DNA from: Acidobacteriota bacterium
GTDB taxonomy: Bacteria > Acidobacteriota > Terriglobia > UBA7540
Reading direction: 5' to 3'
Assembly (NCBI GenBank): GCA_902812365.1
Contig: CADDZC010000042.1
Span: forward strand, 1-34,524
Length of the DNA: 34,524 nucleotides
Part shown: positions 84 through 34,524 of the stretch, in pieces
Numbering within the stretch: position 1 is the stretch's first letter
Layout of the letters: each line of letters opens with the position of its first letter
The notes under the pieces: model-generated
What the model saw: only the letters and a program-made list of their open reading frames with translations
Database searches by the model: none
What the model was told of the DNA's origin: nothing
Position numbers and translations under genes: made by a program

Positions 84-509
84 ATGTCTTTATTACGTCG
101 GCATCCTGGCGGTCGGCAATTACCTACCAACGCCGAACTGCGCATCCTGCGGGCGCTGTGGAAGATCGGCCAAGGCACAGTCGAGGACGTGATCCAACAT
201 CTTCCCTCTGCGGCATCGGCAAACTATAAGACCGTGCAGACGTTTCTGAGGATTATGGAACAAAAGGGGTTCGTGCGCCACGTCGCGCGCGGCCGCGCCT
301 TTGTGTTCGAACCATGCATCAGCCGCGAAGAGGTAGGTCAGTTGACGGTTCGAAACGTGCTCGAGCAGCATTTCAACGGTTCGCGTGCCCAGCTCCTGAT
401 TAACCTGCTAGGAGATGGCCGGATTGAGGAATCCGAGCTGGACGAGTTGGAGGAACTGATCCGTCGGTACCGGGCCCAGCGGACGGTCGACTCCTCGAAG
501 ATGGAATAG
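84..509 (+). CDS. BlaI/MecI/CopY-family transcriptional repressor
   Basis: This 141-residue protein has the winged-helix layout of BlaI/MecI repressors. Helices covering about residues 15-75 include the typical recognition stretch (NYKTVQTFLRIMEQKGFV), a wing with aromatic residues (RAFVFEP), and an acidic helical C-terminal dimerisation tail. Family members bind dyad operators as dimers and are inactivated when a partner M56 membrane protease senses a signal. That partner lies directly downstream (558). I chose the ATG at 84 over the in-frame GTG at 72 because the -10 hexamer overlaps 66-71. No Shine-Dalgarno precedes 84, so the mRNA may be leaderless. Which genes it represses is not shown directly. 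The palindromes at 2126-2179 are the best candidate sites in the window. Confidence 0.88.
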   Translation: MSLLRRHPGGRQLPTNAELRILRALWKIGQGTVEDVIQHLPSAASANYKTVQTFLRIMEQKGFVRHVARGRAFVFEPCISREEVGQLTVRNVLEQHFNGSRAQLLINLLGDGRIEESELDELEELIRRYRAQRTVDSSKME

Positions 510-557
510 TGTAAACTGCAGATTGGCAGTACTGGGTTCGGCTACGGAGCAGAATCT

Positions 558-1442
558 ATGCCTACCTTCGCTGATCTTCCCGCGCTCGCCCTCCTGGCCA
601 GTTATTACGTTCGTATTACCGCTGCATTTGTTGTCTGCTCCTTGATCAGGCGCACCGGCGTCCAGCCTCGGACACGCTTTCTGATCTGGATTTCGTTTCT
701 GACCGGTTCGGGGCTGTACTGGCTAGTTGTCCTCATCGGGAATGTTCGACCCCTCTCGACTCTCGGGAGGGCTGCCACCGCACCGCCGCCAGCGCTGGCA
801 TGGCCGGTTCGGCTGCCGGGCTGGGAGGTTCCCAGGGAGTGGAGCTCCGGGGTCGGTTGGGCCCTCAAAGTTCTGATTGCCAGCTATGCCGTCGGCGTCG
901 CTTTCTTTCTTCTTGGGATGGCCAAGAATCGCATTCAGCTCTGGCTCCTGCTGCGCCGCTCGAGTCCCCCTTCACCCCAAGCCCGCGCCGTGTTCGATCG
1001 GCTGTGCCGAGAACTCCGGGTGAACGGCTGCGGCCTTTACGTGTTACCGGGCCTGACGTCTCCGGGGACCGCTTGCATGTGGCGTCCGCGGATTCTGCTG
1101 CCGGAGTTGCTCGAATCTTATCTGGACACGGCCCAACTGGAAGACGTCCTCACCCATGAATTAGTGCACGTGCGGCATCGGGACTATTTCTGGACCACCG
1201 CCGCCGAGTTGATCCGCTGCCTTGTGTTCTTTCATCCCTCGATCTGGCTGGCCTGCCGAAATCTCAACCGAGAACGAGAACTGGCTTGCGACGCAAGCGT
1301 GCTCCTCCATCGCCACCATCGACGCCGAGAATATGCCGAGTGCCTGACGCGACTGGCCCGTGTGCGGCTTGCCGAGGAGCGAGCCCGCAGCATGGCTGTC
1401 CATATCTTGCCGCTTCCGGTTCGTTCTTGGCTCTGCGGGTGA
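558..1442 (+). CDS. M56-family (BlaR1-like) membrane metallopeptidase, N-terminal part of a frameshifted gene
   Basis: This reading frame encodes 294 residues. Hydrophobic segments lie near residues 5-27, 40-62 and 105-128, followed by a zinc peptidase domain with HELVH at residues 200-204 and the downstream acidic ligand region ERELACD (about 239-245). BlaR1/MecR1 relatives sense envelope signals and inactivate the cognate BlaI repressor, encoded immediately upstream. A Shine-Dalgarno-like GGAG (546-549) precedes the ATG by 8 bases. The frame ends soon after the peptidase domain with a non-family tail (PVRSWLCG). The expected continuation, a Leu/Arg segment and a further membrane helix, is found in the -1 frame from about 1406. 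The intact gene would span 558-2056, so the sequence shows a single-base loss, a sequencing error or a recoding site. The active-site residues are all upstream of the break. Confidence 0.85.
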   Translation: MPTFADLPALALLASYYVRITAAFVVCSLIRRTGVQPRTRFLIWISFLTGSGLYWLVVLIGNVRPLSTLGRAATAPPPALAWPVRLPGWEVPREWSSGVGWALKVLIASYAVGVAFFLLGMAKNRIQLWLLLRRSSPPSPQARAVFDRLCRELRVNGCGLYVLPGLTSPGTACMWRPRILLPELLESYLDTAQLEDVLTHELVHVRHRDYFWTTAAELIRCLVFFHPSIWLACRNLNRERELACDASVLLHRHHRRREYAECLTRLARVRLAEERARSMAVHILPLPVRSWLCG

Positions 1443-2056
1443 GAACGTTGCTCACGGAAAAAGGCCGCGGTTCGCCGTGGAGGCGCGGGGCAGCGATGGC
1501 CGCCCGCGTGGCGGTGCTGGGCGCGTTGGCGGTGTCGTGGCCGGGGCTCAGTCTCCTGCTGCGCTACGCTCCGCTGGCCAGCGTGGCAGCTTCTCCGCCG
1601 AGCGGTCACTCAGCCGGCAAAGCCCACCGGCGCGGCCGCCGCCGCCCCCGCGTCCTCGCCACACGCCAGCCTACCGACGTGCCGGCGGCGATTCGTCGGT
1701 TGCCCTCGAGCCGGATCGATCCCGCTTCTTTTTCCCTTTCCCTGACCGCGCCCGCCCCGGATGTTGCCAATCTTTCCACCCCGGTTAAGAGTTCACTTCA
1801 CCCAGAAATTGATTCCGCGCCGAAAACGGATGCCGCCTCCGTCGCAAGCAACCCCGCATCCGTCGCGCCGCCGATCTATCAAGGCCCAGTCTGGAGCGAA
1901 TCTCCCGTTCTCAGCCGCCCTCCAGCTCCCTTAGCCAAGTGGGGCACCACCGCCATTCGTGTCGCGGCGGCCATAGGGCGTGCCGCCGTCACGGCTGGGG
2001 CCGAGCGCCAGGACCAGGAAGGGGAACATTTTCTGACCTTCCATCTGACCCATTAG
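1406..2056 (+). pseudogene. C-terminal part of the M56 peptidase, in the -1 frame
   Basis: From about 1406 the -1 frame reads ASGSFLALRVRTLL followed by a hydrophobic helix (about AARVAVLGALAVSWPGLSLL). This is what M56 proteins carry after the peptidase domain: a short Leu/Arg segment and the last transmembrane helix. A Pro/Ala/Ser-rich periplasmic tail of about 150 residues runs to the stop at 2056. There is no convincing start codon or ribosome site of its own, so I read it as the displaced 3' part of the gene starting at 558 and not as an independent gene. The tail has no recognisable domain. Confidence 0.6.
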
Positions 2057-2125
2057 GCCAGCCCATACCACCCCTCGCGTAAGGTACGCCGATCGGCCTC
2101 GCTTTCAGCGCCGGCCACACAGAAC

Positions 2126-2143
2126 ATCTTAATCACTTAAGAT
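2126..2143. promoter_or_regulatory. upstream palindromic operator
   Basis: ATCTTAA-tcac-TTAAGAT is a perfect dyad with 7-base arms and a 4-base centre. It lies just upstream of the -35 hexamer at 2149. It shares both arms with the dyad at 2160-2179 but in opposite orientation, its centre being tcac instead of gtga. It resembles a dimeric repressor site. The repressor is not identified. Confidence 0.7.
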
Positions 2144-2148
2144 TTTCC

Positions 2149-2178
2149 TTGACATTCTTAATCTTAAGTGATTAAGAT
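2149..2178 (+). promoter_or_regulatory. promoter of the small secreted protein gene, embedded between operators
   Basis: A perfect TTGACA (2149-2154) and TAAGAT (2173-2178, four of six matches) are separated by 18 bases. The -10 lies wholly inside the downstream palindrome, so repressor binding would be expected to block RNA polymerase. The predicted transcript starts near 2185 and carries a consensus AGGAGG (2221-2226) before the ATG at 2232. Confidence 0.65.
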
Positions 2179-2179
2179 T
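2160..2179. promoter_or_regulatory. downstream palindromic operator overlapping the -10
   Basis: AATCTTAA-gtga-TTAAGATT is a perfect dyad with 8-base arms. Its centre is 35 bp from the centre of the dyad at 2126-2143, a little over three helical turns, so dimers would sit on roughly the same face of the DNA. Read together, 2126-2144 and 2160-2178 form 19-base inverted repeats flanking the -35 box. Confidence 0.7.
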
Positions 2180-2231
2180 GCCTTGCGCCGTTCGCAGTGA
2201 TATCCGAAACGACGCAGTTCAGGAGGTAGTA

Positions 2232-2630
2232 ATGAGAATCCGACTTCCATGGTGGGTAGTTCTAGGTGCAGCGGGAGCCTTCCTCTCTCTTTCCTTTCAA
2301 CGGGTGATCGCCCAACAGAAGACAGGGGGGCCTGATGTGGGACAGCAAGGCGAATTTCAAGGAGAGCATGTCGATACGGGCGCCGCGGCTCTCGATTCGG
2401 GACCTGAAGCAGCCGAACCGGGTGAAGCGCTCGAATCCGCCGAGCTGGGCGAGAATGGCGAAACTCTGAAGACAGAGGATTCAACGCTGAAAAGCCGTGT
2501 GACCAAACCGTCTTCGGGAAACTTGTCGGTAAAGGGGAGCAGGTCTGGCTGGTCCGACCCGGACGTCGACCTCGAGGGAGAGTTCGATTTCCAAGAGATC
2601 TCCGGCCTGGATACACCCCAACTTCGTTGA
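2232..2630 (+). CDS. small acidic secreted protein, unknown function
   Basis: The ATG at 2232 has an excellent Shine-Dalgarno (AGGAGG at 2221-2226). The 132-residue product begins with a signal peptide: basic MRIR, a hydrophobic core to about residue 22, and a likely cleavage after VIA-Q near residue 26. The mature part is low-complexity and strongly acidic, with many Glu/Asp/Gly/Ser residues and no cysteines or recognisable domain. It sits between the M56 protease gene and the TPR-barrel gene, and its promoter lies between two matching palindromes, so it is probably the most tightly repressed gene of the cluster. A long hairpin follows the stop. I do not recognise the family. It could be an export chaperone, a surface component or a ligand for the sensor. 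Confidence 0.7.
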   Translation: MRIRLPWWVVLGAAGAFLSLSFQRVIAQQKTGGPDVGQQGEFQGEHVDTGAAALDSGPEAAEPGEALESAELGENGETLKTEDSTLKSRVTKPSSGNLSVKGSRSGWSDPDVDLEGEFDFQEISGLDTPQLR

Positions 2631-2636
2631 GAACCG

Positions 2637-2671
2637 CCACCGACTTGGCGAGCGGCTCGTCAAGCCGGTGG
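2637..2671 (+). terminator. long stem-loop directly after the secreted protein gene
   Basis: Seven bases after the stop codon the sequence folds as CCACCG-a-CTTG-g-CGAG, loop cgg, CTCG-t-CAAG-c-CGGTGG. That is fourteen Watson-Crick pairs, one G-T wobble and one A-C mismatch around a 3-base loop. No T tract follows, so it could be a Rho-assisted terminator, an mRNA-stabilising 3' end, or an attenuator ahead of the TPR-barrel gene. Confidence 0.5.
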
Positions 2672-2792
2672 GACGGCACAACCCAACCGTACCGCTACAC
2701 GGACTGACACGCCTGAGGTCCGGCAGGGGCTCTGTCTGCGCGGCTTGAGGGCGTTGGTGCGTCCTGGCTGCCGGGAAACTCAGACCACGGCG

Positions 2793-4535
2793 ATGAACAC
2801 CCAAACTGCTCGCCAACGGCTCGAGAGTCGGGCCATCAAAGCCCAGCACGCGGCGGCGCCCGGAGAGCATGGGGGCTGGCGCGGCCGTCAATGGGTTGTC
2901 TTGGCGCCGCTCGCGTTCTTGCAGGCATTGTTCCTCTCAGCCGCAAATTCGCCGAAGCCGCCCCTTCCCGCAACAAGTGACCAGAAAACCTTATCTCAGG
3001 CCGAGGCAGCCGCCACCCAGCACGACTACTCGCGTGCGATCGCACTCTATCAACAGGTAATTAGCGCTCGGCCGGAGAACCCTATCGCCCGGCTGGGCTT
3101 GGCGAAAGCGTACCTTCTTTCCCGGCAATTCAAACTCGCTGTGGCGGCCTACAAATCGGCGCTGCGGCGCGATCCGCGCAACCAGGACGCCCTCATCGGC
3201 CTTGGGGAGGCCTATAACCTGCTGAAAGAATATCCGAGCGCCGAAGGCCCTCTACGGCGTGCTTTGAGCGCAGTCCCGGAGGATGCCAACGCTGCCTGGG
3301 CGCTCAGCCGTACGTATTACTATGAACAGCGGCTGGGGCACGCTCAGCAACTGTTGGAGCGTGTCCTGCGCCGGCATCCCGAGGACTTTCGGCTCTGGGA
3401 ATCGTTGGGGGAAGTCCAGTGGGAACAGGGCCGCCGAGCGGCCGCCCGAGAGAGTTTTCAGCGCGCTCTCCACCTCAACCCTAAAGCGAAACGCTCCGAA
3501 ATTCTACTTCAGAGTCTGGAAGGCAGCCGAACCAACCAGCCGATCCTCAACGTCGTCGGGTTTCACGCTTCCAGTTACTGGATGAATGATGCGGTTGGGA
3601 ACCAGATTCTGTCTTTCCCACAAGCTGTTGATTTCTCGCACGGAAGCCGGTGGCGCAGCCGGTTCGCCAGTGAGTACCGCCGCCTCGCGTTCCGATCCGC
3701 TACCGGGCTGGGCTCCAGCTCGGAGCCGGGCTCGGGTGTGGAAACGGATGCGGCGGCCACCGCGGGCGGTACGCCGGCCCTGGGGATCGCTTCTGTGCGA
3801 AGCACCGTGGAATTCCGGGTTAACGATGACCTCACTCTGATCGGGGGAGGAGGGCTGGCTGATTTTGTCGGGCAAGGCGCGAACCGTCCCCTCTATACCG
3901 CCGGTTTCAGGTTTTCTCCCACGTCGCGGACGCGGTTCTCTTTCCGCTACGGACAAAGCCTCGTCGCGCCCACCGAATTGGCGGCCCGGCGCGCCCTGAC
4001 GCAGAGCGGATGGACCAGCGACTTCCATTACGATCTGCCGGCACTGACCTCTCTCGATCTGACCTACTACCAAAACCGGTATAGCGACTCCAACGTTCTC
4101 CGAGGTGGGAGCGCCGCCGTGCGGCACGTTCTCTGGCGAGGGCCCCTCCAAATCAGCGCGGGATACGACGCCCAAGACCTTTCGTTCGCCCGAATGGATC
4201 TGTTCCACGGCTACTTCAGTCCTAAGCGTTATATCGCCAGCAGCGGGCTACTGAATCTGCAAGGGCGCAAGGGCCGGCTGCACATCGATGACGATTTCGA
4301 CATCGGCCAGGAGGCTTACACCCGCCTGGTGCTACGTCCGCTTTTTTCGCGGGCGCTCGTCGCCGAGCGGAGCGCGAATCCGCTTTTCATCGCCCGGATC
4401 CGGAACTCCTACGACCTCAATTCGCGCTGGTCCGCGGAAGCTTCCTTCCTGTTTTACCGCTCCTCGCTGAACAGCGGCACCGGAGCTTATCGAGCTTATG
4501 GATTCCTTTTTGGTCTGACCCGGCGCTTTCCCTGA
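2793..4535 (+). CDS. TPR protein with probable C-terminal outer-membrane beta-barrel
   Basis: Numbered from the ATG at 2793, the product has 580 residues. An N-terminal cytoplasmic-like stretch precedes a hydrophobic segment at about 33-50, likely an uncleaved anchor or a late signal peptide. About five tandem tetratricopeptide repeats cover residues 65-235, with the usual W/L-G-Y-A-F-A-P spacing. From about residue 250 to the end the chain alternates polar and aromatic/hydrophobic residues in short strands and ends in an aromatic-rich strand (YGFLFGLTRRFP), as outer-membrane barrels do. The architecture recalls the TPR-plus-barrel exporters of exopolysaccharide systems such as BcsC and PgaA, but sequence identity to them is not claimed. 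The glycosyltransferase gene follows 23 bases downstream. An in-frame TTG at 2745 would add 16 residues with no better ribosome site. Confidence 0.7.
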   Translation: MNTQTARQRLESRAIKAQHAAAPGEHGGWRGRQWVVLAPLAFLQALFLSAANSPKPPLPATSDQKTLSQAEAAATQHDYSRAIALYQQVISARPENPIARLGLAKAYLLSRQFKLAVAAYKSALRRDPRNQDALIGLGEAYNLLKEYPSAEGPLRRALSAVPEDANAAWALSRTYYYEQRLGHAQQLLERVLRRHPEDFRLWESLGEVQWEQGRRAAARESFQRALHLNPKAKRSEILLQSLEGSRTNQPILNVVGFHASSYWMNDAVGNQILSFPQAVDFSHGSRWRSRFASEYRRLAFRSATGLGSSSEPGSGVETDAAATAGGTPALGIASVRSTVEFRVNDDLTLIGGGGLADFVGQGANRPLYTAGFRFSPTSRTRFSFRYGQSLVAPTELAARRALTQSGWTSDFHYDLPALTSLDLTYYQNRYSDSNVLRGGSAAVRHVLWRGPLQISAGYDAQDLSFARMDLFHGYFSPKRYIASSGLLNLQGRKGRLHIDDDFDIGQEAYTRLVLRPLFSRALVAERSANPLFIARIRNSYDLNSRWSAEASFLFYRSSLNSGTGAYRAYGFLFGLTRRFP

Positions 4536-4558
4536 CGCCGGATGACGGAGCTCTGCGC

Positions 4559-5752
4559 ATGGATGGGTGGTGCCAAGGCGACGTCACTCATAATTGTCCC
4601 CAAGGCTGGGCGCGCCAAGTCGCGGCGGCGGGACACTCGCCTTTGAAGATACTGATCTTGACTCTGTCGCATGGCGGCGGACACGAACGCCTGGCGCGGG
4701 TGTTGCGGGCAGCTATCCTGGACATTCAGCCCAACGCCCTCGTGGAGGTTGTCCACGCGCTGGATCACTGCGCATCCTGGTTTCGTGCCTACTACGACTC
4801 CTACCGAATTCCATTAAAGTACTGGCCCGGCCTTTGGGATCGAATTGAAAGCTTCCAGCATAGCGCGGCCAGCACGGGTCCGGTTTGGCTGTATCGGCGC
4901 GGCGCGCGACCGTTCTTCCAATACCTTCGCGAGTGCGGCCCCGACGTGGTGATCGCCACCGAGGTCGGCCTGTGCGAGTTAGCGGCTCTTTGCAAACGGG
5001 ATCGTCACGCCCCTTTCCGCCTGATCGCGGCCCCGGCGCTAGACGTCGATCGAGCCTGGGTGCAGCCCGAGGTCGACCTCTACGTCAGTGCGCCCGGCGA
5101 GGCGGCGGCGCAATTGCTCGCAGCCGGGGCGCCACAGGCCAAAATCGTCGACTGCGGAGTGCCCGTCGATCCCGTCTTCGGATTGCAACGGAATCTCCGA
5201 TCCGTCCGCATCCAACTCGGGATCGATCCTGATCAGCCCCTGTTATTGGTCTTATTCGGCGGCGCCGGGCACGGACGAGTATCACCCATCCTGCCGGAGC
5301 TGAAAAAGCTCCCAGGTCCGCTCCAGGTCACCTTTATCACCGGGGCTAACCCGCGCCTGCAAAAGACGCTGGAGCGCCAATGCCACCGCGAGCCGCGCTG
5401 GCGGGTGTTTGGCTGGATCAATAATATCCACGATTGGATGGCGGCGGCAGACCTGCTGCTTACGAAGCCTGGAGAGACCACGGTCTGCGAAGCCATGGTG
5501 TCCGGCCTGCCCATTCTGGCCTTTGGGCCGCTTCCGGGCGGGGAGCGCCGACTTTGCGATTTGATCGAGAGGTGGAGGATTGGCTGTTGGGTGGAGCGCC
5601 CACAGCACCTCGCGCCTCTCGTTTCTCGCTTGCTGGCTTCTCCCGCTGAGCGCTCGTGCCTGCGGGAGCGAGCTTTGGCGCTGGCCCGCCGCGACGCGGC
5701 CCACGAAGCGGCCGCCGCCATCTTGACCTGGGGGTACGGCTCGGCCCGTTAG
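4559..5752 (+). CDS. MGDG-synthase-like (GT28) lipid glycosyltransferase
   Basis: This 397-residue protein has the two-domain GT-B fold signature of the monogalactosyldiacylglycerol/processive diacylglycerol glycosyltransferase family. The N-terminal acceptor domain starts with the glycine-rich ILTLSHGGGHERLARVL (about residues 32-48). The C-terminal donor domain has FGGAGHGR (about 234) and the signature VFGWINNIHDWMAAADLLLT followed by KPGETTVCEAM and LPGGE. Family members transfer galactose, glucose or GlcNAc from a UDP-sugar to diacylglycerol or related lipids on the inner membrane face. The donor and acceptor here cannot be read from sequence. The ATG at 4559 is 23 bases after the TPR-barrel stop, suggesting co-transcription. 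A TTG at 4643, just before the conserved strand, is an alternative start. Confidence 0.8.
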   Translation: MDGWCQGDVTHNCPQGWARQVAAAGHSPLKILILTLSHGGGHERLARVLRAAILDIQPNALVEVVHALDHCASWFRAYYDSYRIPLKYWPGLWDRIESFQHSAASTGPVWLYRRGARPFFQYLRECGPDVVIATEVGLCELAALCKRDRHAPFRLIAAPALDVDRAWVQPEVDLYVSAPGEAAAQLLAAGAPQAKIVDCGVPVDPVFGLQRNLRSVRIQLGIDPDQPLLLVLFGGAGHGRVSPILPELKKLPGPLQVTFITGANPRLQKTLERQCHREPRWRVFGWINNIHDWMAAADLLLTKPGETTVCEAMVSGLPILAFGPLPGGERRLCDLIERWRIGCWVERPQHLAPLVSRLLASPAERSCLRERALALARRDAAHEAAAAILTWGYGSAR

Positions 5753-5809: not shown

Positions 5810-5837
5810 TTGACAAGCTGGGTCCTCGCGGTATCAT
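5810..5837 (+). promoter_or_regulatory. strong sigma70-like promoter giving a leaderless mRNA
   Basis: TTGACA (5810-5815) and TATCAT (5832-5837) are separated by 16 bases. The start codon of the next gene is at 5844, seven bases after the -10, exactly where transcription should begin. There is no room for a Shine-Dalgarno. Confidence 0.7.
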
Positions 5838-33570: not shown

Positions 33571-33930
33571 TTATCTACCGGATGAGCTAGCCTTGGCCTT
33601 CGACTTCGCAGCCGGCGCTTCCTTCACCGACTCGACCGTAATCGTGTCGCCCTTGATCGTTCCCGTGACCACAACCTTCTTCCCAGCCAGGTCCGATGAA
33701 ATTTTGTCTTGCGGATCCAGCTGGTACACCTTCTTGCCGCGGCCAACTAGGACATATTTCGACCCGCCCGAAACGCACTTGGCCACGCACTGGGCAGCCT
33801 CAGCGCTGGCTGTGGCGTGCTTGGCTCCGCACATGCTGTCGCTAATCACCCCGGTCCGCTGGCTGGCCCAACCGAGACAGCCAAACGCCAACACCGTGGC
33901 GGCTAACATCAAAAGTCGCTTTTGCGTCAT
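33571..33930 (-). CDS. small secreted protein with conserved cysteines, unknown function
   Basis: The 119-residue product starts at ATG 33930 behind an ideal GGAGG ribosome site (33932-33940 region on the minus strand); upstream in-frame codons are not used. A signal peptide (MTQKRLLMLAATVLAFGCLG) precedes a compact domain with GVISDSMCGAKHA, AQCVAKCVSGGSKYVLV and KVYQLDPQDKI, ending VVVTGTIKGDTITVESV. Three cysteines and the final beta-strand pattern suggest a small OB-like or metal/disulfide-stabilised fold. Similar secreted proteins are, from memory, frequent in Acidobacteriota. A Lys/Ala/Ser-rich tail follows. It is monocistronic: a promoter lies at 34064-34092 and a strong hairpin at 33516-33544. 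Confidence 0.8.
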   Translation of the reverse strand: MTQKRLLMLAATVLAFGCLGWASQRTGVISDSMCGAKHATASAEAAQCVAKCVSGGSKYVLVGRGKKVYQLDPQDKISSDLAGKKVVVTGTIKGDTITVESVKEAPAAKSKAKASSSGR

Positions 33931-34063
33931 TGTTCCTCCTTTTGGTAGATGACCGTAGACGAGTCCTTCTGCGAACACCCCGTCGTGCTTGCCACGCCCG
34001 GGGGCGCGGTCAGCCAACTTCCGGCCCCGAACGCCCAAGTCGCGACTAACAACTAACATTAAG

Positions 34064-34092
34064 ATGATACACCCGCGACCTCCAAAACTCAA
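34064..34092 (-). promoter_or_regulatory. promoter of the small secreted protein gene
   Basis: On the minus strand TTGAGT (34087-34092) and TATCAT (34064-34069) are spaced by 17 bases. Transcription would begin near 34057, giving an unusually long leader of about 125 bases before the ATG at 33930. I see no recognised riboswitch in that leader. Confidence 0.6.
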
Positions 34093-34182
34093 CTTTACCG
34101 CGAACCCGTCCTGAGCCGGCCGTCCGACTTCCGGGACGACGCCGCCTCCGGAGGGCGGCTCCGGGAGATTCACCCGCGTCCG

Positions 34183-34362
34183 GGCACTTCGGCAAGACGT
34201 GCGGACGGGCTGGACGCCGCCAGCGCGGCCCTCGAGTTTGGGTACGAAAGTGCCAGCCACTTCAACCGCGAATACAAACGCTTCTTCGGCCAGACATTCG
34301 GGACTTCCTGGCGGCACGGACAACAGCCGCTTGACCTTTCCTCCCCCAGGGGACGGACGTAG
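34183..34362 (+). pseudogene. remnant of an AraC-family regulator, C-terminal helix-turn-helix
   Basis: One plus-strand frame encodes LDAASAALEFGYESASHFNR followed by EYKRFFGQTFG, the second helix-turn-helix of AraC/XylS regulators (A-x-x-x-G-Y-E-S-x-S-x-F-x-R-x-F/Y-K-R), then a stop at 34360. Upstream the frame loses family character within about 15 residues (GTSARRADG), and no start codon or N-terminal domain is present. The conserved tail marks a recently decayed gene. Some intact part could exist only if a frameshift lies upstream, but 33931-34180 shows no AraC-like coding in any frame that I can recognise. The last 160 bases of the window (34363-34524) hold no recognisable gene. Confidence 0.6.
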
Positions 34363-34524
34363 ATCGCTGTTACCCGCGGCCGCACCCTCTCGACATTCGC
34401 CGATCTCCGAAGCGCTCCGGTTCACAGGAGATAGGCTGGGAGTGGCGGGCGAGTTTTGCGCCCGGTGGCCCTAGGATCGTTCGCCAGCGGCGGGTAGCTA
34501 CCACCCCCCTGGCTCGGCCCGTCG

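Follow-up and report, generated by a model that had tools for sequence, protein, structure and literature searches.

Organization of the locus

The stretch of DNA analysed here, hereafter the window, comprises contig C42 in full (34,524 bp), which belongs to a 3.5-Mb draft genome from Acidobacteriota. At its left end, plus-strand genes for a BlaI/MecI-family repressor, an M56 membrane metalloprotease, a small acidic exported protein, a TPR-barrel protein and a lipid glycosyltransferase follow one another. A first-pass annotation had given this gene order and its coordinates, both of which proved correct against the ORF list and Pfam domain matches; its remark that beta-lactamases and penicillin-binding proteins (PBPs) are lacking also held, as tests of the main window ORFs turned up neither domain.

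The repressor gene (84-509, plus strand) encodes a protein matching PF03965 (E 4.9e-28, 98 bits) over residues 19-131, which span the winged-helix and dimerisation domain, and its profile matches the MecI/BlaI structures 1okr and 1sd4. The ORF opens with GTG at 72; however, the ATG at 84 agrees with relatives and is the likelier start. The contig begins 83 bp before blaI, and these 83 bp are all the upstream sequence available. An Asn in the window protein (LLIN-LL, nucleotide ~402) aligns with SLVLN-F of Staphylococcus aureus BlaI/MecI, and throughout the clade described below the motif LLVN-LLE places this Asn at the Asn101-Phe102 bond, the bond that is cut by S. aureus BlaR1 (PMC9834060).

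The M56 gene as read (558-1442, plus strand; PF05569, E 5.1e-28) carries the gluzincin motif HELVH at codon 200, ELACD at codon 241 and three predicted transmembrane segments, and its frame stops just past the protease domain. The continuation, comprising SFLALRVRTLL, a predicted fourth transmembrane segment and a tail of ~150 aa, lies in another frame (1404-2056, plus strand), and GC3 changes frame at 1380-1440. Since nine clade relatives (e.g., L163, L166 and L184) have both parts as one uninterrupted ORF of 458-513 aa, the interruption appears to be a one-base frameshift near 1404. It may be a real lesion rather than an assembly error, in which case the window M56 would be broken, M56-dependent induction would be impaired in the source strain, and the downstream unit would either stay repressed for good or depend on some other route for its release. 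No penicillin-binding domain was recognised: the ORF at 1286-2056 matches no family, and the M56 tails of the clade extend only ~150 aa beyond the fourth transmembrane segment. The lack of a PBP sensor on M56 argues against a beta-lactam signal.

Downstream, the gene at 2232-2630 (plus strand), preceded by the ribosome-binding site AGGAGG, encodes an acidic exported protein of 132 aa (pI 4.4) with an N-terminal hydrophobic signal; it matches no known family, and no homologue was found in the fetched loci. It is followed by the gene for a protein with six TPRs and an outer-membrane-type beta-barrel (2793-4535, plus strand; the ORF opens with TTG at 2745). In the AF2 model the TPRs are confident, and ~15 strands are predicted for the barrel, where pLDDT mostly stays <80 and the C-terminal end is poorly modelled. 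Foldseek placed BcsC at the top for this model (TM ~0.3) and further listed PgaA and PelB, and sequence models of BcsC and PgaA gave weak matches to the TPR region only. The BcsC-like match fits an exporter role but does not prove it. The TPR-barrel protein returned nothing as a query in the related-locus search, and one weak barrel homologue, in G313, lies in a type-IV-pilus/adenylate-cyclase context. TPR matches in 61/61 genomes were rejected as orthologues, as they reflect the repeat only.

Starting 23 nt after the barrel gene, the glycosyltransferase gene (4559-5752, plus strand; PF06925 and PF04101) has the MGDG_synth/Glyco_tran_28_C architecture of the MGDG-synthase or diglucosyl-diacylglycerol-synthase type, and the protein is UgtP-like, matching NF010135 below its cut-off (E 1.3e-33). 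A 56%-identical second copy of this glycosyltransferase lies at G000:C79:7215-8306 (L104) and is possibly the ordinary ortholog of the stand-alone glycosyltransferase of relatives. A separate predicted promoter, TTGACA-16-TATCAT (5810-5837, plus strand), precedes the next genes, for a second TPR protein and a CLC channel, and it probably marks the end of the regulated unit, which may therefore plausibly be taken as 2149-5752. At the window's right edge, the minus strand encodes a small exported DUF5818 protein (33571-34425); L085 has two look-alikes of it immediately behind its own, unrelated BlaI/M56 pair.

Candidate operators and the NYKT clade

Directly 5' of the exported-protein gene lie two candidate operator dyads, ATCTTAATCACTTAAGAT (2126-2143) and ATCTTAAGTGATTAAGAT (2161-2178), both perfect 18-bp palindromes of the form ATCTTAA-N4-TTAAGAT. 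They flank the TTGACA box of a predicted plus-strand promoter (TTGACA, 18 nt, TAAGAT; 2149-2178), the -10 element of which falls inside the second dyad. When up to two mismatches are allowed, these two dyads are the sole matches in their own genome, and the 18-mer without mismatch occurs in only one other genome (G204) among 297 of the phylum, where it precedes a gene for a PMT_2 glycosyltransferase (L073). The reading of that site as a chance match in a genome without BlaI was dropped, as G204 encodes a BlaI with the recognition helix NYKT (L171), the helix of the window repressor.

BlaI proteins with the NYKT helix form one clade in a tree of 59 BlaI proteins (support 100/99). A dyad with no more than one mismatch was found within 300 bp upstream of blaI in 10 of 12 NYKT relatives and before none of 46 other BlaIs (Fisher p 1.3e-9, an optimistic value because related genomes are not independent), and the background rate in other fetched loci is one dyad per 722 kb. 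Many of the 46 have AACTAA-N4-TTAGTT upstream of blaI instead, and the spacing TAA-N4-TTA is common to both kinds of dyad. A recognition helix and a DNA site that change together are the usual mark of a repressor with its operator. Of 27 clade dyads, 12 are preceded at 5-7 nt by a TTGAC-like -35 box, as compared with 4% of random positions. The predicted operator code of the NYKT clade is RTCTTAA-N4-TTAAGAY.

A scan that was blind to BlaI, for two neighbouring TCTTAA-N4-TTAAGA dyads in the genomes of ~85,000 species, returned four loci. At two of these (L129 and L131) the tandem dyads lie directly downstream of blaI-M56, with NYKT BlaIs that are 65% and 57% identical to that of the window; the genome of the third (L132) has a 50%-identical NYKT BlaI on another contig, and the fourth is an unrelated Clostridium tandem repeat. 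Exceptions within the clade exist, in that L164, with a 61%-identical NYKT BlaI, has no recognisable dyad within 19 kb, and at L184 a dyad is missing from the stretch just upstream of blaI. Nor is there a dyad in the 83 bp available before the window blaI, so any autoregulation of this gene is hypothetical.

Outside the NYKT clade, a second large Acidobacteriota BlaI clade was observed (L050, L144-L162, L173, L174, L185 and L186), with the helix AY[TN]S and AACTAA-N4-TTAGTT before blaI in nearly every member; this dyad could serve as a second operator code for regulon mapping. In a further non-NYKT lineage (L057), the dyads CTAAAATTTTAG and CTCCTAAACTTTTAGGAG stand on either side of a TTGACA upstream of blaI, which is the promoter layout of the window in different letters.

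Gene neighbourhoods in relatives

The first-pass annotation had proposed a regulated module running from sensor to effectors, to be checked by comparing gene neighbourhoods. In that comparison the cargo genes are not conserved beside BlaI/M56, and a conserved module is not supported. The glycosyltransferase was matched in 51/61 genomes, and BlaI/M56 was absent from all of the 20-odd neighbourhoods inspected in relatives, where the barrel, second TPR and CLC genes are likewise not conserved as its neighbours, and the single, weak barrel homologue sits in a different context. The locus is thus better described as regulated than as a conserved five-gene module.

Other genes accompany the NYKT pair elsewhere. 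Dyads at L184 and L166 precede genes for AsnB-like proteins and PMT_2 glycosyltransferases, with other genes between at L166. The closest parallel to the window is L132, where an acidic exported protein is followed by an outer-membrane barrel; the exported proteins of the two loci cannot be aligned and are not homologous by that measure. As judged from these comparisons, the conserved part is the BlaI-operator circuit, and the cargo is exchangeable and mostly envelope-related.

A separate observation concerns a gene cluster that accompanies NYKT BlaI/M56 at eight loci. Its parts, which vary from locus to locus, are a class-III aminotransferase, a geranylgeranyl-reductase-like FAD enzyme, YceI and, often, a type III polyketide synthase (PKS) of the DpgA-like kind. 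All four are found at L163, L165 and L131; the aminotransferase, FAD reductase and YceI at L166, L168 and L172; and the FAD reductase and YceI at L167 and L171. No description of this cluster as BlaI-controlled was found. The possibility that such a cluster lies beyond the contig edge of the window was unsupported, as its own genome has no PKS match and only weak FAD-reductase matches (33%).

A model for control of the downstream unit

Taken as a whole, these observations favour, at a probability of about 0.8, a reading in which a BlaI/M56 pair of the NYKT clade of Acidobacteriota, with its own operator code, represses the unit directly downstream through promoter-overlapping dyads. Upon the clade, the operator, the promoter overlap and the conserved cleavage Asn, all established by sequence comparison, a mechanism may be built for which we infer BlaI binding, cotranscription, proteolytic release and the signal. 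In this mechanism, BlaI dimers would bind the two dyads, on either side of the -35 and over the -10 of the 2149-2178 promoter, and would thereby silence the genes for the acidic exported protein and the TPR-barrel protein, together with the glycosyltransferase gene, which is probably on the same transcript. An envelope signal acting on the membrane part of M56 would lead to cleavage of BlaI, by analogy with the family at the conserved Asn (residue ~101), and so to release of repression. The claim of the first-pass annotation that the genes after 2232 are repressed by this BlaI is accordingly the part that is well supported, in that the promoter-overlapping operator tracks the NYKT clade, and for this reason BlaI very probably represses the unit at 2149-5752.

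It could be argued that the dyads instead serve some other, unlinked repressor as its operator and that BlaI/M56 is an unrelated neighbour, given that many regulators have palindromic operators and that the 83 bp before blaI contain none of these dyads. However, this explanation is very improbable, as the dyad follows the NYKT clade (10/12) and is absent before the 46 other BlaIs, a scan of genomes with the pattern alone returned genomes with NYKT BlaIs, and the TAA-N4-TTA spacing matches that of AACTAA-N4-TTAGTT upstream of other BlaIs. The order of the genes and their close spacing might suggest, in turn, that repressor, sensor, secreted factor, outer-membrane conduit and glycolipid enzyme form one dedicated and conserved envelope machine, a notion to which the dyad-controlled L132 lends some colour with its own acidic exported protein and barrel. 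Such a machine is improbable, however, since the same cargo was seen in no relative inspected, the glycosyltransferase is located elsewhere in relatives, and the small proteins of the window and L132 do not align.

A further scenario would have the pair in decay, with a real M56 frameshift, no functional inducer, and a unit that is permanently repressed or a BlaI that is vestigial. The M56 frame is indeed broken near 1404, where no long homopolymer points to a slip in sequencing, and the barrel is almost devoid of homologues. However, the first part of the downstream M56 frame is coding-like in composition, the promoter dyads retain perfect symmetry, BlaI is intact, and the assembly is a draft, the reads of which are not checkable. 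Decay of the pair is thus unlikely, though far from negligible.

As to what the repressing BlaI/M56 pair may be for, such pairs are abundant in Acidobacteriota, and nothing relevant was found in the literature searched on their signals or targets in this phylum. The present comparison suggests that BlaI/M56 systems of this kind have envelope lipids and surface proteins under their control, and not antibiotic resistance. A more tentative proposal, to which we give somewhat less than even odds, is that those of the NYKT clade serve envelope-lipid sensing in Acidobacteriota, with an M56 protein devoid of a beta-lactam sensor detecting the state of lipids or the cell surface and inducing lineage-specific surface genes via a switched operator code. 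If this were true, the induced sets would be the type III polyketide/aminotransferase/FAD-reductase/YceI genes in some relatives, the AsnB and PMT_2 glycosyltransferase genes in others and, in the window, those for the acidic exported protein together with what would be a TPR-barrel exporter and a glycolipid synthase. With an operator that is specific to the clade and searchable as a pattern, and a recognition helix that has changed in step, what was an orphan regulator becomes a regulon open to testing.

Comparison with known systems

The window shares with BlaI-BlaR1 and MecI-MecR1 of Bacillus and Staphylococcus a homologous winged-helix repressor, an M56 protease encoded next to it that carries HExxH and ExxCD, a conserved Asn at the cleavage position and operators that overlap the promoter. 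However, BlaI/MecI operators are of the TACA-N2-TGTA type and those of the window clade TCTTAA-N4-TTAAGA; unlike BlaR1/MecR1, the window M56 has no recognised penicillin-binding sensor domain and its frame is interrupted; and envelope genes are the cargo, with no beta-lactamase or PBP found at the window. The copper repressors CopY/CopR are likewise PF03965 proteins with two dyads per promoter, and the best below-cut-off NCBIfam match of the window BlaI is of this type. In contrast to CopY/CopR/TcrY, however, the translated BlaI lacks a Cys-X-Cys metal motif at its C-terminus; its operator differs from that of CopY/CopR, and no copper ATPase directly adjoins it in the window. A role outside beta-lactam resistance has a precedent in Mycobacterium tuberculosis BlaI (Rv1846c), which regulates atpH and sigC (PMC8265638) and thus resembles the window BlaI in having targets other than beta-lactamase, although phylum and targets are different. 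Finally, the TPR-barrel protein resembles the exopolysaccharide exporters BcsC, PgaA and PelB, in which periplasmic TPRs are followed by a C-terminal 16-strand outer-membrane barrel, although the window barrel is a low-confidence model of ~15 strands and, unlike these exporters, its gene has no cellulose, PGA or Pel synthase operon seen beside it.
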